Shown: piece by piece, positions 15,905-58,849 of the stretch | How positions within the stretch are numbered: position 1 is the stretch's first letter | How the letters are laid out: the number at the start of each line of letters is the position of its first letter | From: a virus | IMG/VR virus record: IMGVR_UViG_3300031576_000010 | Span: 35,909 to 99,908 of that record | Reading direction: 5' to 3' (one strand) | Length of the DNA stretch: 64,000 bases | Notes under the pieces: generated by a model | Told to the model about the DNA's origin: nothing | The model's input: the letters and a program-made list of their open reading frames with translations, nothing else | Databases searched by the model: none | Made by a program: the position numbers and the translations under genes

Positions 15905-18700
15905 TTACGCCGTCGCGGCGCTCTCACCCACGCTGAAGAACGGCGAGTCCACCGAGAACTCACCGAAGATCCTCTTGGCCGGGTACCGAAGGTTGAAGAA
16001 GAACTTGAAGTCGAACCTGGTCGGATCCGTGCTCGACTGGAACACCTGGATGTCGGACGCGAGGTTGATGTCCCTCGACCTGCCGTTCTCGTCGCGGAAC
16101 GGACCGATCGCCCCCGACGCGATCAGGGAAGAGAGTGTGACGGCCACGACCGTCTTGATGTCGAAGATGAAGTCGGTCAGGTCTTCCGGCACGATGCCGA
16201 TCAGGTTGGAGTCGACCGCCTGCGAGACGGTCCGGACCGCGTTGTCCTTCTGGGCGCCCGCCGAAATCTCGGCGAACGAGATGAGACCACCGCCTCCCGG
16301 TTCCGTGGTGATGGGGTCGAGCATGAGGAGGCGGCCGGCATCGTTCGTGACGACCAGGACGCCCGCGGGCGCGAGCAAGTGGCGCTCGGCATCCAGGTAC
16401 GTCTGGAACGTGTCGAGGTCGAACCCGGTGATCGTCTTGCGCAACAGTGAGGTCGCGACCGACACGAAGCTGGTGTGACGGGCCGCCACCGCGACCGCCA
16501 GGTAGGTGGAGTTCAGCTCGACGACCGGCTGTGATCCGTCCGGCAGCGTCAGGGTCTTGTCGATGTTGGGCGGGGCGCACAGGATGAACCGGCCGCGCCC
16601 GGGGCTGTCGGCCGCCACCTGGAAGGTCCGCTTGGCCGCGTAGATGAACGTGTGGGCCGTGTCGATGTCGCCGATGTCCGTGTCCCTGAGCATCCCGAAC
16701 CAGCCCCGCCGGAACTTCTTCTCGGTGATGGACGACTTGTTCGTCACGTGGTTCACGAGGGTCGACTGGATCGAGAGCAACTGGGTCGCCGAGAGGGTCT
16801 GGGGCAGGGGCGTCACGATCGCCACTTCCGTGATGGCGAAGTTGTCGAGCCCGTTGTTGATCGCGTTCTGGAAGTCGGCGACCGAGTAGACGTCGTCGTC
16901 GTTCGAGTCCTCGACCTGCACGACGAAGATGCTGGGCGCGTCGTTCTCGAACGCGATCTGCCCCGCAACCGCGAGCGCGTTGTCGGTCGCGGAATCGCCC
17001 ACCTGACCGAACACCTGGTCCTGGTTGAACACGCGGAGCGGCACGTTGTAGTCGGTGGAGGGGCGGACGTAATCGTACGAGACGAAGTAGACCGACCCGG
17101 TCTCCGGCCGGGTGCCCGTCCCCTCGATCGTGAAGGGGAGCTGGGCGGTCGTGAGGCCCAGCACGTTGAGATGCGCGCTGGCCGTCTGGGCCTGCTGGAT
17201 CCGGACCTTGGAGGTCTCGCCCTGGGTGGACGACAGGAGGCGGAGCCGGTCGGTCCCGTCGTTCTGCGCGACCGTCGAGAACGCGGATCCGTACTGGCTG
17301 TGGTCCGTAAGGCGCGCGTTGATGTCGACGATGATGGCGGCGATCGTGATGGCGGCGCCGACGTCCAGCCGACACTCGACCGACCCGTCGCCGAGCTGCC
17401 GGAGCGGCACCTGCGTGTCGTCCAGCTCGAAGATGGTGGTGTGGGCGTCGGACACGCCCTGGTCGAGGATCTGGACCGAGCTGCCCGCCCCGGTCGTCGG
17501 GCTGGTGAGCCGGACGCGCGTGACACCCACGACCGACGCGACCGTCCCGTAGGTTGCGCCGTAGCTGGCGGACGCCAGGAGCGCCGCATTGATCTCCCCG
17601 ACGATCGTGGCGGCCGTGACGGCCGCGCCGATCGTCAAGGTGATGTCGATGTTGCCGCGACCGTCGATGTTGAGCCGGAGGATGTTGTTGCCCGCCAGCG
17701 TGCTGTACGGACCGGCCAGCAGGGTGGTCCACTCGGCCGCGATGGCGCCGTCGACCAGGTCGTCGATCGCGATCTCCAGGACGGACGCGGTCAAGGTCGA
17801 GACGGTCGTGATGACCGGGGTGCCGACCAGCTCGGCGGCCTGATCGATCGACCAGTCGATCACGTCGCCCGCCACGATGAACGGGAACGCAGACAGACCG
17901 AAGATGGCGGCCGCCGAATTGGTCACGCCCGAGTTGATGCGGATCTGCGAGACGGGCCCCTGGGTCGGGCTGGTGAGCCGGACCTGGTCGTTGTTGTACA
18001 CCTCCGCGACCGACCCGTAGGCCGCCCCGTAGGTGCCGCTGGCGATCAGCGCCGTGTTGATGTCGGACACGACCTCCGCGGCGGTCGTGAGGGCCGGGCT
18101 CGCGCCCGCCGTCGTGATGATGATCTGGGCCCTGCCGTCGATCTGGAGGTAGAGCAGGTTGTTGACCGACAGATCGAACGTGTCGTTGATGTGCGAGTTG
18201 ACCCGCGCGCGATCGTCGAGCTGGTAGTCGATGTTCTCGTCGAACGTGGTGACGCCAGCGAACGAGCCGACCCGAACGGCCAACCTGACATCGTCGTTCG
18301 CGAGGTCGTCCCGGTCGGTCGCGATCGCCACGTAGTCGATCGTGTAGGTCGCGCCCGCCACGTACCCGTTGTCGCTGATGCGCACGACCGTCGCGCTGTC
18401 GAACGACCAGAGCGCGACGTTCAGCGGGACCCCGTTGACGAACAGGGTCGAGTCGTTCTGGAGCCCGGTGGATGTGTTGGCGAGCGTGGCGGTGTGGGCG
18501 CCGGGTGTCGCCGACACCGTCAGCGCCTCCCCGTTGATGCCTCCCCGCCTGACCGCCTCGTTGGTCGCGCGCTTGAGCTTGTCGCCAGGCCCGACGAGCG
18601 CGAGCGTCTGGGGGACCGACGCGATCGACAGGGCGTTGGGGACGACGACCTCTTGGATGAGGACGCCTGGATCCGTGTAGGTGGTGACTTGAACGGCCAT
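15905..18700 (-). CDS. Tail sheath protein with three inserted repeat domains
   Basis: 931 residues, about twice the usual length. The N-terminus (TTYTDPGVLIQEVVVPNALS) and the C-terminal 350 residues (TFIYAAKRTFQVAADSPGRG; ISAGAQKDNAVRTVSQAVDS; FFFNLRYPAKRIFGEF) follow the sheath family. Between them, at roughly 181-275, 339-435 and 438-530, are three related beta units with the pattern IDGR.NI.IT, a DINAAL..S..YGA.YGTVA helix and VRLTSPT.G. Such insertions usually decorate the outside of the sheath. The gene lies before the tube gene. Confidence 0.8.
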   Translation of the reverse strand: MAVQVTTYTDPGVLIQEVVVPNALSIASVPQTLALVGPGDKLKRATNEAVRRGGINGEALTVSATPGAHTATLANTSTGLQNDSTLFVNGVPLNVALWSFDSATVVRISDNGYVAGATYTIDYVAIATDRDDLANDDVRLAVRVGSFAGVTTFDENIDYQLDDRARVNSHINDTFDLSVNNLLYLQIDGRAQIIITTAGASPALTTAAEVVSDINTALIASGTYGAAYGSVAEVYNNDQVRLTSPTQGPVSQIRINSGVTNSAAAIFGLSAFPFIVAGDVIDWSIDQAAELVGTPVITTVSTLTASVLEIAIDDLVDGAIAAEWTTLLAGPYSTLAGNNILRLNIDGRGNIDITLTIGAAVTAATIVGEINAALLASASYGATYGTVASVVGVTRVRLTSPTTGAGSSVQILDQGVSDAHTTIFELDDTQVPLRQLGDGSVECRLDVGAAITIAAIIVDINARLTDHSQYGSAFSTVAQNDGTDRLRLLSSTQGETSKVRIQQAQTASAHLNVLGLTTAQLPFTIEGTGTRPETGSVYFVSYDYVRPSTDYNVPLRVFNQDQVFGQVGDSATDNALAVAGQIAFENDAPSIFVVQVEDSNDDDVYSVADFQNAINNGLDNFAITEVAIVTPLPQTLSATQLLSIQSTLVNHVTNKSSITEKKFRRGWFGMLRDTDIGDIDTAHTFIYAAKRTFQVAADSPGRGRFILCAPPNIDKTLTLPDGSQPVVELNSTYLAVAVAARHTSFVSVATSLLRKTITGFDLDTFQTYLDAERHLLAPAGVLVVTNDAGRLLMLDPITTEPGGGGLISFAEISAGAQKDNAVRTVSQAVDSNLIGIVPEDLTDFIFDIKTVVAVTLSSLIASGAIGPFRDENGRSRDINLASDIQVFQSSTDPTRFDFKFFFNLRYPAKRIFGEFSVDSPFFSVGESAATA

Positions 18701-22090: not shown

Positions 22091-22354
22091 CTAGCACCTC
22101 CGCCGCGCGTACTCGTGGCGGGGCGACAGCGCGACCGATCGGAGCGCTTCTGGTGTGCAAAGACGGAGGGGGATCGAGAAGGACGGGAGCAGTCCCTTCG
22201 TGACCTTGATGTTCTTCAGCTCGAACGCTTGGCCCAACGAGGCGACGTGGTTGTAGCCGTAGTACAGCGGCTGACGACCAGCTCCGCAGCAGTTGCAGGT
22301 CTGGTGGTTCCAGCAGAGCGTCGTGGTGCTGCTGTAGCTGGTGTCGGGCGCCAT
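22091..22354 (-). CDS. Small cysteine-bearing virion-region protein
   Basis: 87 residues; its ATG overlaps the stop of the intein-bearing gene (TGATG). The N-terminal half has CWNHQTCNCCG, a possible metal site, followed by YYGYNHVASLGQAFELKNI. No family recognised. Translational coupling suggests it works with the upstream virion protein. Confidence 0.6.
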   Translation of the reverse strand: MAPDTSYSSTTTLCWNHQTCNCCGAGRQPLYYGYNHVASLGQAFELKNIKVTKGLLPSFSIPLRLCTPEALRSVALSPRHEYARRRC

Positions 22355-24906
22355 CAGAATACCTGGCCGATCATCTCGTCACGCTGGGGTCGCCGGCAAC
22401 TGAACCCCTGCGAGATGAAGATGCCCTTCGGGTCATGATAGTCGAACGCGGTCAGGTCGTACCGGACCCCCACATGCGTGCCCTCGCGGAACTCGATGAA
22501 CGCCTTCTGCTGGATCAGGTTGACCTCGGGGGGCACGACGACGTCTGGATCCTGAGCGACCAGGTCGTCGAAGTGGCGGAGTGGCACGGTCCACCAACGA
22601 TGGTTCCCGTCCGAATCCACCACCCCCATGCCGCCCCGCTCCCTCGTCTTGGTCGGCAACCCCTTGAGCACCCGGATGAACGGCTCGTCGAGCCGTGGGT
22701 ACCGGATCCGCGCGATCTCGAAGAACGGGCTCTTGTCGGTCACGAGCGCACGCGTGAGGGTCACGCGCAACTGGATCGTCCCTCCCGCCGCCACCGACAG
22801 GCTCGGGAGGGTCGCGATCGACACGTACGGGCCCGCGTTGATCGACACCTCGACCAGCACGGACGTGCCGGCTGGTTGTCGGATGTAGCTGTCGACCCGG
22901 AACTGGAACGGGTTGACCGACGCGACGACGCCGGGCGCCCCGATCGTGAAGACGGGTGATGTGATGGTTGCGGTCAGCAGGCCGGTCGCGATCTGGAGGC
23001 GGTACGGCTGGAACTCGGTGAACAGCGAGGTGCCCACGAGCGTGACGGCCGGGTCGATCGACGCGACGTGCAACTCGTGGTACCCGAACTTCGTGTAGCC
23101 CGGCACGATGCCGGTCCCGTAGCAGTTGTGAACCGTGACACCGTTCGCGACGAACTGATGGTCCTCCTCCACGGTCAAGTCGTACACAGGTTCGAGGACA
23201 TCGTTTCGCTCGACGGACCGGACAAACGGAACCTTCCGCTGCACGACGGGCTCGGGTCCACGTCTTGCCGCCCTGGTGCTCTCCGCTTGGTCAATGCACG
23301 CCGCTAGCTTGGCACTCTTGCGCGCGTTGAAGAACCCGACTCGCGTTTGGAACGCTTGCACGTGGGCAAGGGCCGAAATATCCAGTGCGTACAGTCTCCG
23401 ATAGCCGCGCTCCGAACGCCACGTTGCCTTGTACTCGTGGATTGTTGACCGGATTCCGAGCCCCATCAGGAGTAGCTGCACGTCCTGCAAAAGCGGATAG
23501 GAGACGGATGCCAGCGAGAGACTCACCCGGCCGCCGGCCCCACCAACGCTGCCGTCCGTGGAGAACAACCCGGAAAGGAAGCCGCGCACACACTCCACGG
23601 ACGCTCCAAAGATATGCGCAGGCGCGCGACGGGCAGCGGGGTCCGCGCGCTTGTCCAGCCCCAATGCTCCCAGGAAGTCGGCCAGCCCCTTAATCCGCCA
23701 GGAGACCGTCGCCATTGGCGCCGGCTCCGAGAGGACGAGGTTACTCTGCCGGTCCCACTTACGCTCGATCACCTCCGTCTGCGTCCCACACCAGCCGTGT
23801 ACAACCTCTTGTAGGTGGTCGAGGTCCGCGCGGTCCACGATGGAGGAGCAGACCGTCACGATCGGGTACTTGCCCTTTCCCACCGAACCGTCCCCGAGAA
23901 CGTAGCCCAGGAGAAGTCCAACATCGAATCCATCGCTATCTGGGAACTTGTAGTCCAGACTCTTGTCCGGACGAGCGGTCAGATCAGAAACGGCCGCGAT
24001 AGGGACGGGCAGCGGCGAGACTGATTCCCCCTCTGGGGGGGCGAAGTCGAGTCTGTCGCCCTCCTCCAGGTCGCCCACCTCCAGCCAGCCGCGTTCCGCC
24101 ATACGAATGAAGTGATCTGGAGTCGCACGAATGGAGAGCCCCCAGTTCGTCGTGACCGTCATGGTCTCGCGGATACCGGTCTGAAACGCCGTTGCCCTCC
24201 GCCATGCCTTACCGGACCAGACCTCGAACGGTTCACCCACCAAGTCCTCGACAGCGACCAATCCTCGGCCGCGCACGAACACGCGGGTGTCTCCAGAAAC
24301 GCACGATCGACACTTGCCGTCCGGCTGTTTGCTTGTTTGCTTGTAGCAGGAGCACAGCGGGTAGACCGCGTTCGTGACGGTCGTCTGATCGACCTGCGGG
24401 TTGAAGTTGGGGGTGTGGAGCAGCGACCTGGAGAACGTGATCGAGTTGCTGTAGGGACCGCCTGACGACGGCAGGAACGCGCTGTCGATCGAGACGGTCA
24501 GGTAGCTGCCGCTCGACTCCAGCTTGAAGATGCCGCCCGCCCGCACGTCGACCGTCGGGGCGGCGGTCCCGCCGGGCGGCGTCCACACGATCGTCCTGGC
24601 GGCTCCCGCGACCGTCAGGACCAGGGTGCCGGCGCCCGTGGGTGTCCGGTGGGAGAACGCGGCGATCGCGACGCCGGGGATCGGGGTGGCCTCCAGGATG
24701 GCGGACTGGGGGATCTCGTGCCACAGATCGGCCGCCAACCCGACGCCCAACACCTTGTCGATGTGGGCCTTCAGCATCTTGAAGATCGACTGGTCACCTC
24801 GAATGCGCGCGTCTACTCCCGTACCGGAGTATCGACCAAGATAACCAACGGCCAGATGCTTACCTTGCACCCGAACAAACCCACCCCGCCCAACACCAGT
24901 GGTCAT
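22354..24906 (-). CDS. Virion (neck/connector region) protein interrupted by an intein
   Basis: 850 residues as encoded, about 457 after splicing. N-extein residues 1-201 include an Ig-like module (GAGTLVLTVAGAARTIVW; GGIFKLESSGSYLTVSI) shared with the genes at 18790 and 31107 and end CSCYKQTSKQPDGKCRS. The C-extein from residue 595 begins CYGTG and is beta-rich. Spliced, the junction gives CSC...GKCRSCYGTG, a four-cysteine metal-binding arrangement. The upstream HNH gene overlaps by four bases. No exact family for the extein; a connector or tail-tip role is inferred from position. Confidence 0.75.
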   Translation of the reverse strand: MTTGVGRGGFVRVQGKHLAVGYLGRYSGTGVDARIRGDQSIFKMLKAHIDKVLGVGLAADLWHEIPQSAILEATPIPGVAIAAFSHRTPTGAGTLVLTVAGAARTIVWTPPGGTAAPTVDVRAGGIFKLESSGSYLTVSIDSAFLPSSGGPYSNSITFSRSLLHTPNFNPQVDQTTVTNAVYPLCSCYKQTSKQPDGKCRSCVSGDTRVFVRGRGLVAVEDLVGEPFEVWSGKAWRRATAFQTGIRETMTVTTNWGLSIRATPDHFIRMAERGWLEVGDLEEGDRLDFAPPEGESVSPLPVPIAAVSDLTARPDKSLDYKFPDSDGFDVGLLLGYVLGDGSVGKGKYPIVTVCSSIVDRADLDHLQEVVHGWCGTQTEVIERKWDRQSNLVLSEPAPMATVSWRIKGLADFLGALGLDKRADPAARRAPAHIFGASVECVRGFLSGLFSTDGSVGGAGGRVSLSLASVSYPLLQDVQLLLMGLGIRSTIHEYKATWRSERGYRRLYALDISALAHVQAFQTRVGFFNARKSAKLAACIDQAESTRAARRGPEPVVQRKVPFVRSVERNDVLEPVYDLTVEEDHQFVANGVTVHNCYGTGIVPGYTKFGYHELHVASIDPAVTLVGTSLFTEFQPYRLQIATGLLTATITSPVFTIGAPGVVASVNPFQFRVDSYIRQPAGTSVLVEVSINAGPYVSIATLPSLSVAAGGTIQLRVTLTRALVTDKSPFFEIARIRYPRLDEPFIRVLKGLPTKTRERGGMGVVDSDGNHRWWTVPLRHFDDLVAQDPDVVVPPEVNLIQQKAFIEFREGTHVGVRYDLTAFDYHDPKGIFISQGFSCRRPQRDEMIGQVF
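23125..24303 (-). mobile_element. Intein with LAGLIDADG endonuclease (393 residues)
   Basis: Residues 202-594 of the host protein. Block A is CVSGDTRVF and block B includes TPDHF. The dodecapeptide motifs are LLGYVLGDGSVG and FLSGLFSTDGSVG, each with the catalytic aspartate. The C-terminal splice site is GVTVHN followed by Cys. First Cys, terminal Asn and a downstream Cys are all present, so it should splice and the endonuclease should be active. Confidence 0.9.
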
Positions 24907-34718: not shown

Positions 34719-35924
34719 CTACGGCTTCGCGCCCTTCGCGACCGCACGAGCGTTCGGGATCCCAAAGCCGATAATCTCACAGAACGCCCATCCCTTGACG
34801 GTTTCCTGTGTGACAAATCGGTTGTACGGTTCCGAGAACAGCTCGACCCGCACACCCATCTCTCCGAGGTACTCGGAGCCCGTGACCGCGTAGAAGGTTC
34901 CCGCGGGCACGACTTCCTCGACGCCGGTACCAGCCGTCGTGATGATCTGGGCGTTCAGGTAGTTGCCGATGTACCCGGCCAGGATCAGCTCCCTCTCGGT
35001 CACCGGATCCACGGTCGTCGACATCGTCTTGATGACGTCGGAGAGTTCCGCACGGTTGATGAGGAACTTCTCGACGATCAGACGATGGCGCTCGACCTGG
35101 AACCGGACGTCCTCGAAGGCGCCGGTGCCCAACGTCGTGTACGTCGTGGCCGTGTTGACGGCCGTGGAGGCGCGGTCCAGGAGCAGACGCCCTCGCTTGT
35201 CCTCGTTCAGCTCGATCTCCTGACGCGCGGTGTCCTGCGCGCGATCGAGAACGTCGTAGTTCATCTGGTAGATGTCGAAGATGTCGACCGAGGTGAACGC
35301 GACGATCTTGGTCTCGTCCGGCTGGATGTACCGACCATGGAGGCGTGCCTCGATGCCCTGTCCATCCTGACCGACGACGAAAGCGACCGAACGAACGTCC
35401 TTCGCGATCCTGAACAGCTCGCCCTGCGCGAGCGGACGCACACGGTACACCTTGCGCGCCCATCCCTCGTAGTCGACGATGTCCTTGATCGGAAGGAGCA
35501 GTTCCTGGCCGACGAGCGCGAAGCCCTCGCCGGTCGGGTCCTGCATCGCCTGGGCCACGATGTTCATCTTGGCCTGGCGTTCCTGGAGAGACTCGCGCGC
35601 CGCCGCCGTCCTGATGAGCGACTGCGACGCGCCCGGGCCCACGTTCTGGAGCAGGTGGGCGATCTGCCGAAGGACATCTCCGTTGTCGTAGGCAGACATC
35701 TGCCCCGACTTGTCGAACATGCGGTCCTTCGATTCCGCACGGCCCGACCCCGGACCGACCTTGCGGCCGGCCTGGCGGAGGGGGTTGAGCTGTCCGGACT
35801 CGTCCCACACACGTTCCTCCGCCCTTGACTGCGGTGTGTGTCGGACGCTCCCGAGCGGCAAGCCCCTCGAAGCGGTCTTGGGTGTTCCGGACTGGGAGGT
35901 CCGGAACGGATTTACTCGTTCCAT
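34719..35924 (-). CDS. Major capsid protein (HK97-fold-like)
   Basis: 401 residues, ATG 35924 with GGAGGAAC close before it. The long helix AREIES-like region (SLQERQAKMNIVAQAMQDPT), the extended central part (YEGWARKVYRVRPLAQGELF) and the C-terminal domain (SEPYNRFVTQETVKGWAFCE) have the order of HK97-fold capsid subunits of large phages. It follows the protease/scaffold and a probable decoration gene in the standard head gene order. Assignment rests on order and layout, not on a profile hit. Confidence 0.7.
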   Translation of the reverse strand: MERVNPFRTSQSGTPKTASRGLPLGSVRHTPQSRAEERVWDESGQLNPLRQAGRKVGPGSGRAESKDRMFDKSGQMSAYDNGDVLRQIAHLLQNVGPGASQSLIRTAAARESLQERQAKMNIVAQAMQDPTGEGFALVGQELLLPIKDIVDYEGWARKVYRVRPLAQGELFRIAKDVRSVAFVVGQDGQGIEARLHGRYIQPDETKIVAFTSVDIFDIYQMNYDVLDRAQDTARQEIELNEDKRGRLLLDRASTAVNTATTYTTLGTGAFEDVRFQVERHRLIVEKFLINRAELSDVIKTMSTTVDPVTERELILAGYIGNYLNAQIITTAGTGVEEVVPAGTFYAVTGSEYLGEMGVRVELFSEPYNRFVTQETVKGWAFCEIIGFGIPNARAVAKGAKP

Positions 35925-48208: not shown

Positions 48209-49789
48209 TCAAGCCTTCCCGGCCAGATCGATCCGCTCGATCACCGCGGCCCAGTGGCCGTCGCCCTGCATGAACGCGGCGATCACATCCCACACGGTGT
48301 CGCTCCAGCCCCCGACGTTGAGGATGTCGGGCCGGTCCTTCACCTGGGTGGAGGCGGACGGCTGAAGGTCCAGGCAGACCAGGCGGGCGCGCGGGTTCCG
48401 CACGCGGAACTCAGCCCACGCCTTCATCGTGTTGGTCCCGCCGGCCCCGTAGTAGCCGGAGGGCGTGTCGAGCCACGACTGGTTGTCCGACACGATGACG
48501 ATGAGGTCGGCCAACGCCTTCTCGTCGTTGAGCAGCCGGAGGGGCGCCGAACAGTCGGTCGCGCCGGGCTGCTCGGCGGCGATCCGGGCCGCGTTCGTCA
48601 TGACGGTGTCGCGCGGGTTGATGTCGGTCCGGCGGATCCCCTCGGCGAACGGGATGACGCGAGCGTCCCGGTTGTTCCGCAGGACTGCGGCCGACACAAG
48701 CGCCGCGACGTCGACGCACTGGACCACTGAGGTGGCACCCTTCCGCTCGCCAGTGACGGGCGAACGCATCGAGCCCGAGACGTCCGGGCAGACCACCACC
48801 TTGCCGTCGAACACCGGCACGTTCGCGACCGCCACCTCCATGGCGTCCTGGAGGGCCTCCCGGATCTCGTGTGGCAGACCGGTCGACATCTTGAACGCGA
48901 CCATGAGCTGGTAGGGGAACGCGCGAGCCCGCCGGATCGCGTCGGCGTCACGGAGCCGTGCAGCCACCTGGCTGACCACCGCCTTGTCCTTGAAGCAGCC
49001 GTGCCGCTCGAACGTCTGGAGGTTCATCCGGACGGTCTGCCACGACGCCGACAGCGCGATCGCGGTCCACTGGGCGGTCGACAGCTCCGCGGCGGTCAGC
49101 ATGAGGAACGGGACGTCCGGGACGTCGCCGGCCGGATCCTTCTTCCACCGCTCGAACTGCTGGATGAGCGCGGGCAGGTGGCCGGCCTCGTGGGGCTTGC
49201 CGATCAGGTAGCCGTAGAACGCCTTGTGCGCGTCGCTCGCGGGCCGCGGGTGGACCAGCTTGACGACGTCGGCGAGCGACGGATCGTTCCCGACGGACGC
49301 ACGGAACAGGTCGGTCGCCTGGCGGCCGTTGAGCCAGGTGGTCACCAGCGTCTTGGGCAGGGTCCCCAGGCTCTTGCGGCCCAACTGTCCGGACCGCAGC
49401 ATCTGGACGAAGTTGCGGACCATCCGGCCGTTGTCGATCACCCGGGGGAACACCCGCTTGAGGACGTCGCGGGCCTCCTGGGTGCCGCGCGCCGCGAGCA
49501 TGGCGCACAGGAGGGCGGGCATGTCCTTCATGAACCCGCGCTCGCGCGCGTAGACCGCCGCCTTCCCGACGAACACGGGGTCGACCTCGCGGGCCAACCG
49601 GATCGCGAGCGCGAGCTGGTCGTCGGCCTGCACGTAGAACGTGCTCGACAGGCAACCGGTCACCGCGAGCTGCGCGAGCGCGTCGCGCGCGGACCGCAGG
49701 TACGCGACGCCTCCCGCCTGGTTGATGGTGTCGGTTGCGGGTGGGGTCTGGCCCGGCGGGGCCGACCGGAACAACTGCTTGCTCGCCAT
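48209..49789 (-). CDS. Ro60-like protein (TROVE and von Willebrand A domains)
   Basis: 526 residues from ATG 49789, with GGGGAGGTG ahead. The N-terminal two-thirds are helical repeats of the TROVE type: YLRSARDALAQLAVTGCLSS, AAVYARERGFMKDMPALLCA, ALSASWQTVRMNLQTFERHG. The C-terminal third is a von Willebrand A domain with the metal-dependent site: CPDVSGSMRS near 384-393, the Thr in GATDCSAP and a later Asp in IVIVSDNQSW. Ro60 proteins bind noncoding Y RNAs and misfolded RNAs and work with exonucleases in RNA quality control. Upstream lies a tRNA-like element. Confidence 0.85.
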   Translation of the reverse strand: MASKQLFRSAPPGQTPPATDTINQAGGVAYLRSARDALAQLAVTGCLSSTFYVQADDQLALAIRLAREVDPVFVGKAAVYARERGFMKDMPALLCAMLAARGTQEARDVLKRVFPRVIDNGRMVRNFVQMLRSGQLGRKSLGTLPKTLVTTWLNGRQATDLFRASVGNDPSLADVVKLVHPRPASDAHKAFYGYLIGKPHEAGHLPALIQQFERWKKDPAGDVPDVPFLMLTAAELSTAQWTAIALSASWQTVRMNLQTFERHGCFKDKAVVSQVAARLRDADAIRRARAFPYQLMVAFKMSTGLPHEIREALQDAMEVAVANVPVFDGKVVVCPDVSGSMRSPVTGERKGATSVVQCVDVAALVSAAVLRNNRDARVIPFAEGIRRTDINPRDTVMTNAARIAAEQPGATDCSAPLRLLNDEKALADLIVIVSDNQSWLDTPSGYYGAGGTNTMKAWAEFRVRNPRARLVCLDLQPSASTQVKDRPDILNVGGWSDTVWDVIAAFMQGDGHWAAVIERIDLAGKA

Positions 49790-52517: not shown

Positions 52518-52860
52518 TCAGCTCAGAATTTCACGTAGCAGGCCAGCCACCATCTGCCGTTGCTTTCTGGGGGTCATCATGAGGTAGAAGCAGAGCCTCG
52601 CTAGAACGACGGCTGTTGTCGCAGGCAGGCTCGCCAACTTGGCGATGTCAGTGATGTTGACGCGCAACAACCCCAACCGATTGGACACGGATGCGCAGCT
52701 ATCTGCCCGCGTAGCATGATAGGTGCTGTCCCCATGAGTCCAACGGATCCTACCACCTGAGCAGGGTTTGCCGGGTTCCGCCTTGCACGTCTGGCACTGA
52801 AGCATTGATGGGCTGAGAGAGTCACCTAGCGACTTGATTACGTCGTCGATTTCGATCAAC
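52518..52860 (-). CDS. Zinc-finger protein behind the AAA ATPase
   Basis: 114 residues from TTG 52860, chosen for TAGGAGG six bases before. CQTCKAEPGKPC, followed later by THGDSTYHATR, fits a small phage zinc finger. C-terminal half is helical (VLARLCFYLMMTPRKQRQMV). Nine bases after the ATPase, so possibly a partner. Confidence 0.55.
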
Positions 52861-52869
52861 TTTGGCCTC

Positions 52870-55308
52870 CTACACCGCTGTGCTCGCCCGCTTGACCCCC
52901 GTGACCTCGTCGGCGAATTCGCGGACGAACTCGGCGATCTCCTCCTGGTAGCCGAGATCGCGGCTCTGGGCGAACGCGTTGTCCACCGCCTTGACGATGT
53001 CGGCGCGCGCGATCCCCTTGGACGTCTTGTCTGTGATGTCGCGGAGGAGCGCGATGGATGTGGCGCGATCGACGATGCCGGCGACCATCGCGCCATTCAC
53101 CACCTCGCCGAGCGTGAAGTTCGAGAACTTCCGGCCGCGCCGCTCGATCGCGTACAGCACGCGACCCGGAGCGAACAGCTCGCTGACGCCCGTACGAACC
53201 AACACGTCCATCTCGGATGCGATCGGCTTGTCGCGCAAGACCAACCGGAAGATGTCGGCGGCCGCCTCGCGGGTCGGGCGCGTCACCTTGACCTTTCGAT
53301 CGATTCGTCCATCCCGCACGACCGCCGGGTCGAGGATGTCGGGCCGGTTGGTCGCGAGCAGCACGACGGCACCCGAGTCTTCCAACCCATCCATCTCGGC
53401 CAAGAACATCGGGACGATCGTCCGCTCGATGTGCGTGGTGATGTCGTTGCCCCGCTTGCACAGGATCGATTCGGCCTCGTCGATGAAGATGACAGCCGGG
53501 AAGCCCGCGTTCTTGTAGTGCTCGCGGGACCGCTCGAACATCTGGCGGATCGTCTCTTCCGAGTTGCCGACGAACCGGTTGAGGATTTCGGGGCCCTTCA
53601 CGTAGATGAACCCGCCGGTCGCCTTGTCGCCGTGGATCCGGGCCAGCGCGGTGGCGGTCGCCTTCCCTAGGAGGGTTTTCCCGCAATTGTGAGCTACAAT
53701 ACCATTCGCGACGAAGTTGCTAGCCTCGTCGACCGTAATGTCGAAGACCTCGGCCTCGCCATCCGGCTCTACCGACACAACACTAACCTCCTTAGCCAGG
53801 AAGATTGGAAGCTGCCGGTGTCGTTGATGACGACGAGCGTGTTCCGATTTGGTCAAGATGACGAGGTTGTCAGGTGTGTTGTTGGTCGGGTCCTCATCCT
53901 CATGATGAACATCCATGACTGGATCGAGAAAAACGTGGTCCACGGAGAAGACGCCACAGCGAATTACTTCGAGCCATGCGTCCAACGACAGGCCGTTCAG
54001 CCGCCCCTCCACGACGAGCCGGTGTTCAGCCAACTGGTATCCGCCGTCGTTTTTTCGAGCATGCGGATGCTTTGCAAGACCAACACCGCTCAACGTCCAA
54101 TACCCACCAGACAGATACCTCCCACCTGCCATTGGTGCCGCCTCACCGTTGACCAGCACGTGCGATCCTGCAACCAGCTCGTCCGCTCTTGTCCAAACGT
54201 CATTTGGTTGCGCGATCTTGTGGTCGGGCGTCACGCGCAGAACCTTACCGTCCGCGAGCGTGACGCGGACGACCGGTCTGGTCCCTCGTTCATACACGGC
54301 GACGACCTGCCGGAGCCTGAATTCCCCGTTGATGTAGCAGCGGATCATCGTCGGGATGGCGGGATCCCACCGCACCGCACGACCGCCAGGCCCTCCTGCT
54401 CGACGCCGCGTCTTCGCACATGGGTATCGCTGGCCGCAATCTACACAGCGGCCAGCGCCATCGTCCGCATGGCGCCAGGACACACGACGCTGCGAAGTCG
54501 AGAACACACCGCCCTGGGCGTTGAACCGGCGGACCAGTTCACGGAGCGGTAGCCGAAACCCCTTGCCCGCTCGATTGATCGTCACCTCCGCATCGCCATC
54601 AACGCACCCAGGAGGCCCGTACAGCAGCACCCCCTTGATCCGCTTCTTCCCATAGCGCGCGTACAAGTCGGCGTGGAGGTGGGGCAGCTCGATCGCCTCG
54701 ATCATCTGGGTCTTGGCGTCCTCCAGGCCACCGATGTCGTCCCACTTGACCCCAGTCGTCCCCTCGAACGTGTAGCGCGACTCCGGCTTGCCCAAGCTCT
54801 TGACCACCACCGACCTGGACGGGTCGAGCAAGACGCGGTGCCCCTCCTCCAGGCCGCTGACAGCCGGCGCGACCAACACGACCACCGGGATGCCGCCCGC
54901 CGCGTCGACCTCGACGCTCCCGTCCGGCCTGACCGTCCTGACGACGTGTACTTCGCCGGTCGGCACGTTCGGCACGACCGCGACAATCTGGTTGGAGTCG
55001 GGCTTGATCGCCACGATGGTGCCGACCCGGTAGTCGTCCTGGTTGTCCGGTAGGGCGAGGTCGAGGGTACGGCCGTCCGCCGCGACCGTGACGGTCGTGC
55101 GGTCGCGGTCGACCCGCAGGACAGTGGCGTGCTGATGGGGCGGGGCCTGGAGACGCTTGAGCGCCATGTCCATCTCGATGATGCGGGCGCGCGCCTGCTC
55201 CAGCCCCGCCTTCATCTCGGCTTCACGGGCCTCTAGCTCGCGGATCCGCTTCTCCGAGAAGACGATGCGGTCGTCTTCATGCTCCCGACCGTAGCGCCCG
55301 AAACTCAC
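52870..55308 (-). CDS. ARC/Mpa-like proteasomal AAA ATPase with an intein
   Basis: 812 residues as encoded, about 505 after splicing. N-terminal coiled coil (about 15-55), two OB-like parts (about 60-165), then the AAA domain starting VKWDDIGGLEDAKTQMIEAI, with the Walker A GPPGCGKT re-formed by splicing, Walker B VIFIDEAESI, and LLATNRPDILDP. This matches mycobacterial Mpa/ARC, which unfolds Pup-tagged proteins for the 20S proteasome. The C-terminus is KRASTAV, without the proteasome-docking GQYL or HbYX tail. No proteasome, Pup or ligase gene is seen here. Follows the MazG-like gene with a four-base overlap. Confidence 0.85.
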   Translation of the reverse strand: MSFGRYGREHEDDRIVFSEKRIRELEAREAEMKAGLEQARARIIEMDMALKRLQAPPHQHATVLRVDRDRTTVTVAADGRTLDLALPDNQDDYRVGTIVAIKPDSNQIVAVVPNVPTGEVHVVRTVRPDGSVEVDAAGGIPVVVLVAPAVSGLEEGHRVLLDPSRSVVVKSLGKPESRYTFEGTTGVKWDDIGGLEDAKTQMIEAIELPHLHADLYARYGKKRIKGVLLYGPPGCVDGDAEVTINRAGKGFRLPLRELVRRFNAQGGVFSTSQRRVSWRHADDGAGRCVDCGQRYPCAKTRRRAGGPGGRAVRWDPAIPTMIRCYINGEFRLRQVVAVYERGTRPVVRVTLADGKVLRVTPDHKIAQPNDVWTRADELVAGSHVLVNGEAAPMAGGRYLSGGYWTLSGVGLAKHPHARKNDGGYQLAEHRLVVEGRLNGLSLDAWLEVIRCGVFSVDHVFLDPVMDVHHEDEDPTNNTPDNLVILTKSEHARRHQRHRQLPIFLAKEVSVVSVEPDGEAEVFDITVDEASNFVANGIVAHNCGKTLLGKATATALARIHGDKATGGFIYVKGPEILNRFVGNSEETIRQMFERSREHYKNAGFPAVIFIDEAESILCKRGNDITTHIERTIVPMFLAEMDGLEDSGAVVLLATNRPDILDPAVVRDGRIDRKVKVTRPTREAAADIFRLVLRDKPIASEMDVLVRTGVSELFAPGRVLYAIERRGRKFSNFTLGEVVNGAMVAGIVDRATSIALLRDITDKTSKGIARADIVKAVDNAFAQSRDLGYQEEIAEFVREFADEVTGVKRASTAV
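53686..54606 (-). mobile_element. Intein with HNH endonuclease (307 residues) in Walker A
   Basis: Residues 235-541 of the ATPase, splitting GPPG from CGKT. N-block CVDGDAEVT, block B TPDHKI, an HNH-type part (DVHHEDEDPTNNTPDNLVIL), and the C-block VANGIVAHN followed by Cys. First Cys, terminal Asn and downstream Cys are present. An additional CVDC and CAK pair near the start may bind zinc. Confidence 0.9.
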
Positions 55309-55937
55309 CCGTCCGCCCGCTTGTTCCCGTGGCGTGGCGGGCGCGCCGCGTTCTTCTCACGCTTCCGCTCCATCTCGGCGAGCAGGTTGACCCCGCACGC
55401 GATCGAGGTCGAGGTCGTCTCCTTGATGACCAATTCGAGCGCGATCCTGACATCGTCCTTCCGGTCCTTCCGCCACGCCTCGACCGCGGCGGTCAGGTAG
55501 TCACGGATGGGACGTAGGACCCGTTCGATCGGCTCGAACGGGAAATTGGGAGCCGGCTGCCTGCCCTCCCGGAGCGTCCAATCGGCCCCCCAAAGTCCCC
55601 ACAGCATTCCGGTCACCCGGATCGCGATATCGGCCAGCTCCTCGCCGAGCGGGTCCTGTCCGGTCCCGATGACGGCCGCCTCCGCCTCCGTCACCTCCGT
55701 GTAGGTGAGGATCAGCTTCTTGGTGAAGTTGTCCCAGGTGGGCGGCTCGAACCCGTTCGCGTTGATGATCTCCAGGTTGAGCCGGCCCGACTCCTTGATG
55801 TCCATGCGATCCCTTTCCACAGCCGTGCCTACAGTCGTGATCACCTGCGGCATCAGGATCGACCCGAGGTGTCCCGACGCAACCATCTGGTCGAGTAGCT
55901 CGGGGTCGGTCGGCAACAGGTTGAACGTCGTCACCAC
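55305..55937 (-). CDS. MazG-like nucleotide pyrophosphohydrolase
   Basis: 210 residues. Residues about 75-115 carry the MazG pattern: LTYTEVTEAEAAVIG then EELADIAIRVTGMLW, giving the ExxE...EExxD metal set. Such enzymes remove abnormal or host nucleotides. C-terminal region is basic (RKREKNAARPPRHG). It overlaps the ATPase gene start by four bases, so they form a unit. Confidence 0.7.
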   Translation of the reverse strand: MVTTFNLLPTDPELLDQMVASGHLGSILMPQVITTVGTAVERDRMDIKESGRLNLEIINANGFEPPTWDNFTKKLILTYTEVTEAEAAVIGTGQDPLGEELADIAIRVTGMLWGLWGADWTLREGRQPAPNFPFEPIERVLRPIRDYLTAAVEAWRKDRKDDVRIALELVIKETTSTSIACGVNLLAEMERKREKNAARPPRHGNKRADG

Positions 55938-56185
55938 AGATCCTCGGTGAACAGCATGTCCTTGGGCTCGGCGATCTGACCGGCCTCGAACGCCAGTCGG
56001 GCGGCCTGCTCGCGGGTCATGAAGCCGTCGTCCGTCAGGAACCCCTGGACCGCGCCGGCCGGAAGCCGCGCGCCCGTCTCCGCGAAGTACAGGGCGATCA
56101 CGTCGTGATGACGACGTGGCGGCGCGACCGTCCAGATGAACCCGTCGACCAGGATGGCGGCCCGCTTGACCACGGTCAGCTCCAT
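55931..56185 (-). CDS. Small unknown protein
   Basis: 84 residues from ATG 56185. Contains VVKRAAILVDGFIWTVAPPR and a helix EQAARLAFEAGQIAEPKDML. Overlaps the deaminase stop by 10 bases. No family recognised. Confidence 0.6.
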   Translation of the reverse strand: MELTVVKRAAILVDGFIWTVAPPRRHHDVIALYFAETGARLPAGAVQGFLTDDGFMTREQAARLAFEAGQIAEPKDMLFTEDLW

Positions 56186-56628
56186 ACCATGTGGAACCAC
56201 TCGACCCCAGACGCCTGCGCCAGCTCCTCCTGCGGGCCGCTGATCCGATATCTCCGGTCGAACACGACCCGCACGACCCCTTTGACGATCGCGTGTTGCA
56301 AGCACTTGATGCACGGTGAGAGCGTCGAGTAGAGCGTCTTGGGCCCGTCGAAGTCGCGGGCGAACAAGAGCGCGTTCATCTCGGCGTGGACGGTCCGGTG
56401 GCAGCCCGAGTCCTCCCCGATCTTCAAGCAGCCAACACCATCGTCGGTGCAATGCGGTTGACCGGGCAGCGACCCGCAGTAGCCAGCCCCCAAGATCCTG
56501 TGGGTCGCGTGCTCGACCAACACGGCTCCCACACCACCCAGCTCCAGCGCGCGCGTGCAGGTGGTCCGGCGGGCCACCTGACGGGCGATCTCGATGTTGA
56601 CCTCGTCCCAGCTCGGTCGTGCGGTCAT
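56176..56628 (-). CDS. Deoxycytidylate deaminase-like enzyme
   Basis: 150 residues. Zinc-dependent cytidine/deoxycytidylate deaminase motifs: HAE at 81-83 and PCIKC at 105-109, plus the extra metal-pattern residues CYCG, HC and C between, typical of dCMP deaminases. Makes dUMP for dTMP synthesis. Overlaps the next gene by four bases. Confidence 0.85.
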   Translation of the reverse strand: MTARPSWDEVNIEIARQVARRTTCTRALELGGVGAVLVEHATHRILGAGYCGSLPGQPHCTDDGVGCLKIGEDSGCHRTVHAEMNALLFARDFDGPKTLYSTLSPCIKCLQHAIVKGVVRVVFDRRYRISGPQEELAQASGVEWFHMVWS

Positions 56629-57047
56629 TCCGACACCCCCGACGCCAGGCGAAACCGCTCAACCGCCCGATCGAACAGGGCGGCCAGATCGGCCCGCCCA
56701 TCCAGCATGACGTACTCGTTCGACTGTTCGACGAACTCCTCCCACCGGACCAGCAAGCAGGCGAGCATGGCGGCTTGCTTGCGCATGTCCTTCAGGTCCC
56801 AGAGCCACGGGGTCGCCAGCTCGCCGGCCATCCCGTGCTCGCCGTCACCATCGTCAACCTGGACGTCGAGGACGAGCCTGTAGAGCACGTCGCCTTGTTC
56901 GACTGGCGGCACGTTCGCGGGCGCGTCACCACGCGAGATAGGCTCGATCCACCTGGTCCGCATCTCGACGTGCGCGTCCAGCACCCACATGCCGACCCGG
57001 AGGTATTCGCCTGGTTCCAGGACGGCTTCTTCGATCCCTTGTGTCAC
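56625..57047 (-). CDS. Unknown protein
   Basis: 140 residues from GTG 57047, whose GTGA overlaps the stop of the ATPase gene; a longer upstream frame is Arg-rich and unlikely. Contains EYLRVGMWVLDAHVEMRTRW and a helical C-terminus (ADLAALFDRAVERFRLASGV). Could be an OB- or Cas-like small protein; no family recognised. Confidence 0.55.
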   Translation of the reverse strand: MTQGIEEAVLEPGEYLRVGMWVLDAHVEMRTRWIEPISRGDAPANVPPVEQGDVLYRLVLDVQVDDGDGEHGMAGELATPWLWDLKDMRKQAAMLACLLVRWEEFVEQSNEYVMLDGRADLAALFDRAVERFRLASGVSE

Positions 57048-58849
57048 GACACACCCAAGAAGAACGTTTCGCTCGCCCGGATGCCGTCTCGCCCGACCTC
57101 GACGAGACCGTTGGTTCGCAGGAGCGACAGGTAGTTGCCGAACGTGCCGCCCGACGGTTCGATCCCGACCCGCTTGCCGAGCTGGTCGCGGGTGCATGGG
57201 CTCGGGTAACTACCAAGCAGCGTGTCGAGCATGTCGCGCGCGCCCTTCGGCAACCGCGACTTCCACAGGGCCGGCAGGTCAATCTCCGGCAAGGTGGCGG
57301 GCGCGACCGCCTGGCCCTGCGGTGTGAGAACAACGCCCTCGTCCGTCCCGTCGATGTAGCCGCCGACCCGCAAGAGCGACAGGTAGTTGCCGAACGTGCC
57401 GCCCGCATGCGAGAGGCCCGCGAGCGTCCCGAGCTGCACGCGGGTGAGGGGGCGGGGGTGCAGGGTGGCGAGCGCGACCAGCATGGAGCGCGCCCCCTTC
57501 GGCAGCTTCGTGTCCCCGTTCGACCCCGCCTCCCGCTCGCTCATCCGGCGCTTCTCCGCCAGCTTGGCGGCGACATCTTCGGTGGGGGACCACTTGGTCG
57601 GGTCGCCCACCTGCTTGCCGTTGCCGTACTGCCGATCGAACGACCGGGTCATGTCGAGGTTGCGGGCGGGCGACTGCGGCTGGTCCTTGCGGAGCCGCTC
57701 GACCAAAAGCTCGATCTTCTTGGTCGTCGACTGGACGGCGGTCGACACTTCGCACGTACGCGCGAGGCTTGCCTGAAGTTGGTCGACCTGGTGGTCGAGC
57801 CGGCGGATCTCCACGAGCAACTCGGGCGGGACGTATGGGATACGTTCTGGGACCAGCGGCCTGGTGGGCGCCGTCTTCTTGGCCAGATCGCGCTCCAGCT
57901 CGGCGATCCGCTTGCGCAGGGCGGCGGGGTCGCGGGCGGCGGCCCGCTCGACCACCTGTTTCATCGCCATCCGGATCTCGTCCAGCTCGACGGGCGCAAG
58001 TGTCCTGGCGGACGCGGCCTTCTGGCCGACCGTTGGGGTGGCGGACGCGTCGAACGTCCGCTTCTTGGCGATCTGGAACTTGCCCAAGATCCTGAGCCAC
58101 TGGGGCGACCACACGCACGCGGTCCCAACCGGCAGCTTGGACAGCTCGGCGGTCGGGACCTGCACGCGACCTTGCGTGTCGACCCCCTTCTCATCGATCC
58201 ATCCCTCGATCGTCTTGCGTTCCTGCGGGCCGGACGTCTGCAACACGACCAGCACTTCCGCCTGGTTGAGCGCGTCCTTGTTGACCGCCTGGGGCCGCTG
58301 CGAGATCAGCGAGAAGCCGATCCCGTAGTTGCGGCCCAACTTACAAATGTCCTCCCAGGCGCCCAGCATCCGCTCCTCCCCCTTGAACGTCCGTTGCGGT
58401 ACGAACGTCTGGGCTTCTTCGAGGAACAGATGGATGGGGGAACGCGACCCCTTCTTCCGGTGGAACAATTGCTCGGCCAGCGCGGTCACGAATTCCTTGC
58501 GCTGACCCTTGCGGAACGACGAGACGTCCAGCACGACCGACGTGCCCTTGTCGACGATCAAGTCGGCGACCAATTGACCATCTTCCGGCTCCAGCGGGAC
58601 GTCCCCGTGCTCTCCACCGAACACCGGGATCGAAATGCCCGGGCCTTTGCCGTCCGCTGCAACGCGCAACCCCCACCAAACACCGACCGGATCGAGCACG
58701 ACCACCTGGGCGCCCACGTCCAGCATCGACTCGGCCAACCGGCCCGCCGCGAACGTCTTGCCGGAACCGGAGCGTCCGAGGAACGCGAACTTCTGGGTGA
58801 CGGCGTCGACCGGGAGGTCGAGCCCGGGCGCGAGCTTCAGGGTGGACAC
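57044..58849 (-). CDS. HerA/FtsK-like ATPase with two winged-helix repeats
   Basis: 601 residues, GTG 58849. N-terminal ATPase: Walker A GRSGSGKT near 26-33, VVLDPVG, Walker B IHLFLEEAQTF, and GIGFSLISQRPQAVNKDALN, the HerA-family sensor-type region. A long coiled coil (ELERDLAKKTAPTRPLV region and beyond) follows. The C-terminus has two repeats: LPKGARSMLVALA...GGTFGNYLSLLRVGGYID and LPKGARDMLDTLL...GGTFGNYLSLLRTNGLVE. HerA-type ATPases move or process DNA, sometimes with a nuclease partner. The promoter at 58859 gives a nearly leaderless message. Confidence 0.8.
   Translation of the reverse strand: MSTLKLAPGLDLPVDAVTQKFAFLGRSGSGKTFAAGRLAESMLDVGAQVVVLDPVGVWWGLRVAADGKGPGISIPVFGGEHGDVPLEPEDGQLVADLIVDKGTSVVLDVSSFRKGQRKEFVTALAEQLFHRKKGSRSPIHLFLEEAQTFVPQRTFKGEERMLGAWEDICKLGRNYGIGFSLISQRPQAVNKDALNQAEVLVVLQTSGPQERKTIEGWIDEKGVDTQGRVQVPTAELSKLPVGTACVWSPQWLRILGKFQIAKKRTFDASATPTVGQKAASARTLAPVELDEIRMAMKQVVERAAARDPAALRKRIAELERDLAKKTAPTRPLVPERIPYVPPELLVEIRRLDHQVDQLQASLARTCEVSTAVQSTTKKIELLVERLRKDQPQSPARNLDMTRSFDRQYGNGKQVGDPTKWSPTEDVAAKLAEKRRMSEREAGSNGDTKLPKGARSMLVALATLHPRPLTRVQLGTLAGLSHAGGTFGNYLSLLRVGGYIDGTDEGVVLTPQGQAVAPATLPEIDLPALWKSRLPKGARDMLDTLLGSYPSPCTRDQLGKRVGIEPSGGTFGNYLSLLRTNGLVEVGRDGIRASETFFLGVS

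Follow-up and report, generated by a model that had tools for sequence, protein, structure and literature searches.

The Mpa/ARC-type ATPase described here, together with the small Pup-like protein and the membrane protein that follow such ATPases in related phages, and with neither a proteasome nor a Pup ligase alongside, suggests a phage system for unfolding proteins that needs no proteasome and has not been described before. Our best reading, to which we assign a probability of about one half, is an unfoldase that acts independently of a proteasome, is recruited by a Pup-like adaptor needing no ligase and is probably tethered to the membrane. The ATPase gene sits in a 99,908-base (99.9-kb) IMG/VR virus record, IMGVR_UViG_3300031576_000010; the window is the 64,000-nucleotide stretch of that record (positions 35,909 to 99,908) that was analysed, and coordinates refer to it unless noted. 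Mpa/ARC, the ring ATPase that delivers proteins to bacterial proteasomes, forms with Pup a cellular system known from a restricted range of bacteria, and in the open-licence literature we found no description of a phage ATPase branch with this cassette. What is new here is the phage branch together with its cassette; the window itself holds an intein-bearing ATPase and perhaps an altered adaptor.

An Mpa/ARC-type ATPase and its Walker A intein

The features of the locus are as follows.

52870-55308, minus strand: Mpa/ARC-type AAA ATPase gene, 812 aa with the intein and 505 aa spliced (ORF, TIGR03689, fold matches)
54607-55308, minus strand: N-extein with coiled coil, two OB barrels and the start of the AAA domain to GPPG, residues 1-234 (AlphaFold2 model, pLDDT mostly 85-97)
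55147-55278, minus strand: N-terminal coiled-coil helix, residues 11-54 (AlphaFold2 model)
54973-55134, minus strand: OB domain 1, residues 59-112 (AlphaFold2 model)
54790-54951, minus strand: OB domain 2, residues 120-173 (AlphaFold2 model)
53686-54606, minus strand: intein in Walker A, residues 235-541, 307 aa (PF14890, TIGR01443, TIGR01445)
53833-53916, minus strand: HNH motif of the intein homing endonuclease, residues 465-492 (PF13392, above cutoff)
52870-53685, minus strand: C-extein with the remaining AAA domain (CGKT, Walker B FIDEA, pore loop FVG) and the C-terminal part, residues 542-812 (sequence, PF00004)
52888-53160, minus strand: C-terminal beta-grasp-like region, residues 717-807 (AlphaFold2 model, Mpa fold matches)
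52518-52859, minus strand: next gene, 113 aa, opening with TTG after a strong ribosome-binding site (GGAGG); N-terminal IDDVIKSLGDSLS, then a PF24623 zinc finger
55305-55937, minus strand: upstream 210-aa gene (ORF), overlapping the ATPase start by 4 bases

The ATPase frame opens with GTG, holds no internal stop and has exactly the coordinates of the first-pass annotation, which had assigned the gene to the ARC/Mpa family on the basis of its coiled coil, OB parts and AAA domain. Profile searches bear this kinship out. The spliced 505-aa protein scored 328 bits against TIGR03689 (pup_AAA) over profile positions 7-496 of 512, below the equivalog cutoff of 504.75 bits; runner-up profiles were far lower (CDC48, 197 bits; PAN, 196 bits), and no better non-ARC AAA family was found in Pfam, NCBIfam, PHROGs or PADLOC, so that the ARC profile stays best in the very check that had been proposed. 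The same search with the intein left in gave 303 bits in two pieces. With phmmer, double-AAA CDC48 chains outscored Mpa in total, and alignment of the whole protein (18-478) was obtained only with Mpa chains.

The predicted structure points the same way. An AlphaFold2 model built with 48 sequences placed most of the exteins at pLDDT 85-98 and retained the coiled coil and both OB barrels, whose loss would have spoken against the family call, along with the AAA core and a beta-grasp-like C-terminal part; the intein portion is of low confidence, as inteins are not represented in the alignment. In a Foldseek search of the PDB, the 30 best matches were all Mpa chains (E from 4e-28), and the ranking continued with eukaryotic proteasomal ATPases and p97. 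Viral predicted structures gave AAA-core matches, and none among the matches listed had the Mpa architecture. The window protein thus shares with actinobacterial Mpa/ARC (TIGR03689; PDB 7pxd, 5kwa, 5kzf, 7ljf) a coiled coil, two OB barrels, a single AAA domain, an aromatic-hydrophobic-Gly pore loop and the beta-grasp-like C-terminal part. It differs from Mpa/ARC in its sub-equivalog score, its lack of the GQYL end, its position outside the proteasomal clade, the HNH intein in Walker A and the absence of accompanying Pup, Dop, PafA or 20S genes.

An HNH intein between GPPG and CGKT had also been recognised from the sequence, and both its splicing blocks and its HNH motif now have profile matches: PF14890 (E 1.7e-13), TIGR01445 and TIGR01443 for the N- and C-terminal splicing regions, HNH_3 (E 3e-7) and PF13392 at 30.4 bits against a cutoff of 24.8. 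The splice signals comprise Cys1, a C-terminal HN and Cys+1 (CVDGDAE...IVAHN, followed by C), and the insertion point lies exactly between GPPG and CGKT. At this site GPPGCGKT is uninterrupted in 126 of 140 relatives (near-copies counted), and excision would therefore restore the consensus, leaving a protein with intact GPPGCGKT (Walker A), FIDEA (Walker B) and FVG (pore loop) in its sequence. Third-position GC is 0.65 in the intein and 0.90-0.91 in the exteins, a deviation in codon usage that is expected of a foreign insertion. A second intein-like insertion was seen by eye (CVSGDTRVF...VTVHN, followed by C) in an 807-aa structural-region protein at 22354-24777, minus strand.

ATPase lineage and the cassette in related phages

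Scans of viral sequences returned many relatives of the ATPase, roughly 33-50% identical, on contigs of up to 533 kb. A genome scan returned ARC genes adjoining Dop and UBact genes, plus phage-like ATPases from candidate-phylum MAGs, Bacteroidales and alphaproteobacterial genomes. The closest relative overall (L095, 52%) lies on a 9-kb contig in a Taylorbacteria MAG, and further kin occur in phages or prophages of the Alphaproteobacteria Brevundimonas, Labrys and Ancylobacter. In a quick, midpoint-rooted tree with many weak inner branches, GQYL-bearing and UBact-linked ARCs formed one clade (SH-aLRT 97), and the window ATPase fell outside it, near L005, L095 and L017. Judged by this sequence comparison, the ATPase is a member of deep lineages outside the proteasomal ARC clade.

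Several relatives merit separate mention. The ATPases of L095, L008 and L184, for instance, are free of an intein, and the cultivated Brevundimonas phage Polewnik has a related ATPase gene but neither coiled coil nor DUF1360. Phage-type ATPases in candidate-phylum and Bacteroidales MAGs (L096, L097, L100) appear to be chromosomal; ABC-transporter-like genes lie near the ATPase in L096 and L100, and in L097 and in L100 a small partner gene encodes a cysteine-free protein with a strong Pup-like helix. We rejected the assignment of L062 and L063 as lacking a coiled coil, which lies just upstream in another frame: the coiled-coil/OB and AAA parts (L062, 5702-6801; L063, 5700-6801) are in different frames and change at the same spot, through a programmed frameshift, a split gene or a shared sequencing error.

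The order of genes in related phages is ATPase, small protein, then a membrane protein resembling DUF1360, an arrangement that is visible only in relatives and hence lay beyond a reading of the window. This order is constant in 31 deeply divergent phage-type loci, made up of 20 in a first set and 11 added later as a held-out set; several other relatives have the ATPase without the cassette. An HMM built from 13 DUF1360-like members matched 20 independent loci, always downstream of these ATPases, and found no relative in the window phage's own genome. The protein of L005 exceeds the Pfam cutoff for PF07098 (24.3 against 21 bits) and that of L013 falls below it. The phage members share the CPxC motif with DUF1360 but are divergent from the family at large and are tied to the ATPase; we know of no function for DUF1360. 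Nothing but the two CPxC cysteines is invariant across 30 DUF1360-like proteins. These cysteines sit in a loop with many Arg and Lys residues, which by the positive-inside rule would be expected to face the cytoplasm. A model of the membrane protein is entirely helical (pLDDT 95), and a PDB fold search with it gave zero matches.

Cysteines also mark the small protein. Its gene encodes CxC or CC in 20/20 first-set loci with DUF1360 and in 8/32 loci without it, a count that ignores phylogeny and may include spurious frames among the 8. Across 17 aligned small proteins the only invariant residues are two cysteines near the C-terminus. In a further clade, where ATPase alignment starts only at about residue 150-190 and no coiled coil or OB region can be aligned, most ATPases carry GCGDPxCxxC at the N-terminus; this fusion of a cysteine module to the ATPase provides separate support for the two working together. 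In L207 (from 6482) and L212 (from 6288), the ATPase is followed by two copies of a small cysteine-bearing protein.

The aligned small proteins have in common a core segment, DDVLxxhDxAL (h, hydrophobic), that resembles the helix by which Pup binds the coiled coil of Mpa. In Pup this helix lies within residues 21-51 and binds antiparallel, its N-terminus pointing to the pore (PMC8755798). The phage family offers its best example in L095, TDNVLDAIDRALE, compared with TDDLLDEIDDVLE of Pup. Scored for the Pup core helix, intervening ORFs picked by position alone exceeded control genes of like size both in the first set (18 ORFs, mean 18.2; 256 controls, 8.4; p=3e-7) and in the held-out set (11 ORFs, 17.2; 102 controls, 9.1; p=3e-5), with p-values that are optimistic in view of the shortness of the helix and the kinship among loci. 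The held-out set matters because the motif had come to light through visual inspection of some first-set members. Profile-profile comparison with Pup gave a probability of 73.6% and 47% identity over 17 columns, and 0/200 column shuffles did as well. A second subfamily (L013, L048, L055, L057, L062, L063, L067) has an internal GCGCG and, for the most part, a weaker helix match. At the level of sequence, then, the family's small proteins carry a segment resembling the coiled-coil-binding core helix of Pup. Like Pup (PF05639) and UBact, they are small, in most cases have a flexible N-terminal part, and are encoded in the neighbourhood of the ATPase. In contrast to Pup and UBact, they have no match to the Pfam Pup profile and no ligase, they bear a cysteine motif in place of the C-terminal GGE/GGQ (the GE/GQ end), and their gene stands directly behind the ATPase, before the DUF1360-like gene.

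In the window phage, the gene after the ATPase is of another kind. Its zinc finger matches PF24623 (Phage_zn_bind_8, E 3e-7), and its N-terminal segment has a weak Pup-helix score, which 5% of the control genes reach as well; in the shuffle test p was 0.022. Codon usage in the gene is atypical, and a viral scan with it as query found no relative. In view of that control rate and the codon use, assignment of this gene to the adaptor family is no more than a suggestion, and an altered adaptor is possible on this sequence evidence; that a borderline hydrophobic segment of the same protein stands in for the missing membrane protein is speculation on our part.

Proteasomal, stand-alone and counter-defence readings

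The first-pass annotation had further proposed that a phage copy of ARC/Mpa could redirect host protein turnover. In this form the ATPase would dock on a host 20S particle and redirect or accelerate degradation of Pup- or UBact-tagged proteins, which its Mpa-like build over the full length would allow. Its tail ends in RASTAV, and the missing docking motif that had been reported is indeed absent: no phage-type ATPase has the GQYL end, and tails in the phage family are not conserved. By itself this is not decisive, since ARC genes adjoining Dop and UBact genes are also without GQYL, so that its absence alone does not exclude 20S binding. The earlier remark that no proteasome subunit or Pup gene lies nearby holds for the entire record, and searches for Pup ligase, 20S and the Pup domain gave nothing above cutoff there or in 28 related phage records; weak Pfam Pup matches in three records were below cutoff. 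Across 31 records these searches exceeded the cutoff only in MT835496 (L014), which is filed as phage and has ARC, two Pup-ligase-family genes, Dop among them, and Pup in bacterial order. MT835496 is probably a bacterial fragment and served as a positive control in which ligase and Pup were detected. The kin of the ATPase include phages and prophages of Alphaproteobacteria, hosts that are not known to have Pup-proteasomes. The case against docking is the sum of the tail, the missing partners, the placement outside the proteasomal clade and this spread of hosts. Hijacking of a host 20S is not supported, a proteasome reading of the window ATPase is unlikely, and we regard docking on the host particle as quite improbable. 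The earlier interpretation therefore stands in its observations and its family call, and its proposal of redirected proteasomal turnover is not supported.

Two readings without a proteasome compete with the adaptor-recruited unfoldase. The ATPase might act on its own as an unfoldase or chaperone of proteins that the phage itself encodes, in virion assembly or replication, with the downstream genes as unrelated passengers here. The window phage has no full cassette, and neither do several relatives, as this reading would have it; recurrence of the cassette in constant order across the 31 deeply divergent loci, and the fusion of cysteine modules to the ATPase in another clade, argue against it. 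Of the alternatives it is the one that we take most seriously, unlikely as it seems. Counter-defence genes are common in phages, and PADLOC gave AAA-level matches to TRIP13 and IetA, which might indicate an ATPase that disassembles a host defence complex or a Pup-like protein that competes with host Pup. Those matches cover the AAA core alone and score far below the match to ARC, and in a host that has no Pup there would be nothing to gain from competing with it; we hold this reading to be more improbable still than 20S docking.

A proposed mechanism and the setting in the window phage

The function that we infer for the cassette, taking as observed the computed ATPase family, predicted fold, intein, gene order, helix similarity and cysteine pattern, begins with a hexameric Mpa/ARC-type unfoldase that would become active only once the Walker A intein has been spliced out in vivo, and that would work without a 20S proteasome. 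In the phage family its N-terminal coiled coil is probably bound by the small protein through the Pup-like core helix, and the basic or Gly-rich flexible N-terminal tail that most small proteins have could thread into the pore, as that of Pup does. The cysteine motif occupies the place of the GGE/Q end that ligases use in Pup, and probably pairs with the CPxC cysteines of the DUF1360-like protein through a shared metal ion. Such pairing would hold the unfoldase to the host membrane, where it would unfold or extract a membrane-associated protein. The window phage would represent an altered cassette, with no DUF1360 and with a zinc-finger protein of weaker helix match as the next gene.

Parts of this mechanism have counterparts in cellular systems. 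Corynebacterium glutamicum has no 20S core, and its ARC works proteasome-free to take apart pupylated ferritin (PMC12288473), an action akin to that proposed here; in contrast to the phages, which have none of these factors, it keeps Pup, PafA and Dop. In the CD4/CD8-Lck zinc clasp, a two-cysteine motif on each protein contributes to binding one shared zinc ion next to the membrane (PMC12198760). A clasp in this manner is a proposal drawn from the cysteine pattern by itself: two-cysteine motifs on two proteins provide an analogy, not homology, and metal binding in the phage proteins is hypothetical.

A bolder idea, which we offer tentatively and consider somewhat more apt to be wrong than right, is that large phages possess a so far undescribed, ligase-free counterpart of the Pup system. 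In it, an ARC-type unfoldase would be recruited by a small protein that has the docking helix of Pup and a tail fit for threading, and this small protein would be joined to its cargo or to a membrane anchor by a cysteine-metal clasp with the DUF1360-like protein, where Pup uses an isopeptide bond. The phage ATPases diverge more deeply than the proteasomal ARC clade does, and on that ground such systems might even be older than pupylation. If true, this would reveal a second way to recruit Mpa/ARC-type unfoldases, via a membrane protein and a Pup-like partner that needs no ligase. It would also open the origin of pupylation to direct testing and add a new host-takeover machine of large phages.

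The upstream 210-aa gene has no Pfam match, and its 4-base overlap with the ATPase makes translational coupling likely. Farther upstream, a dCMP deaminase gene (56176-56628) lies between the ATPase gene and a HerA-like ATPase gene (57044-58849, minus strand; DUF87 and PADLOC HerA matches). A few genes downstream, a Ro60-like protein with vWA_Ro60 and TROVE domains is encoded at 48209-49789, minus strand; Rfam and tRNA scans of the window returned nothing, including no Y-RNA-like match. The same phage has a second, different AAA ATPase outside the window (G000:C1:24303-25481, plus strand; PF00004, 64 bits). Among structural-region proteins, one shows distant kinship to mycobacteriophages and others, and another, by reading a tail sheath (15905-18700, minus strand), is 45% identical to a protein of Virus Rctr197k, its sole match among phage records, which comes from a methane-oxidising/anammox enrichment.
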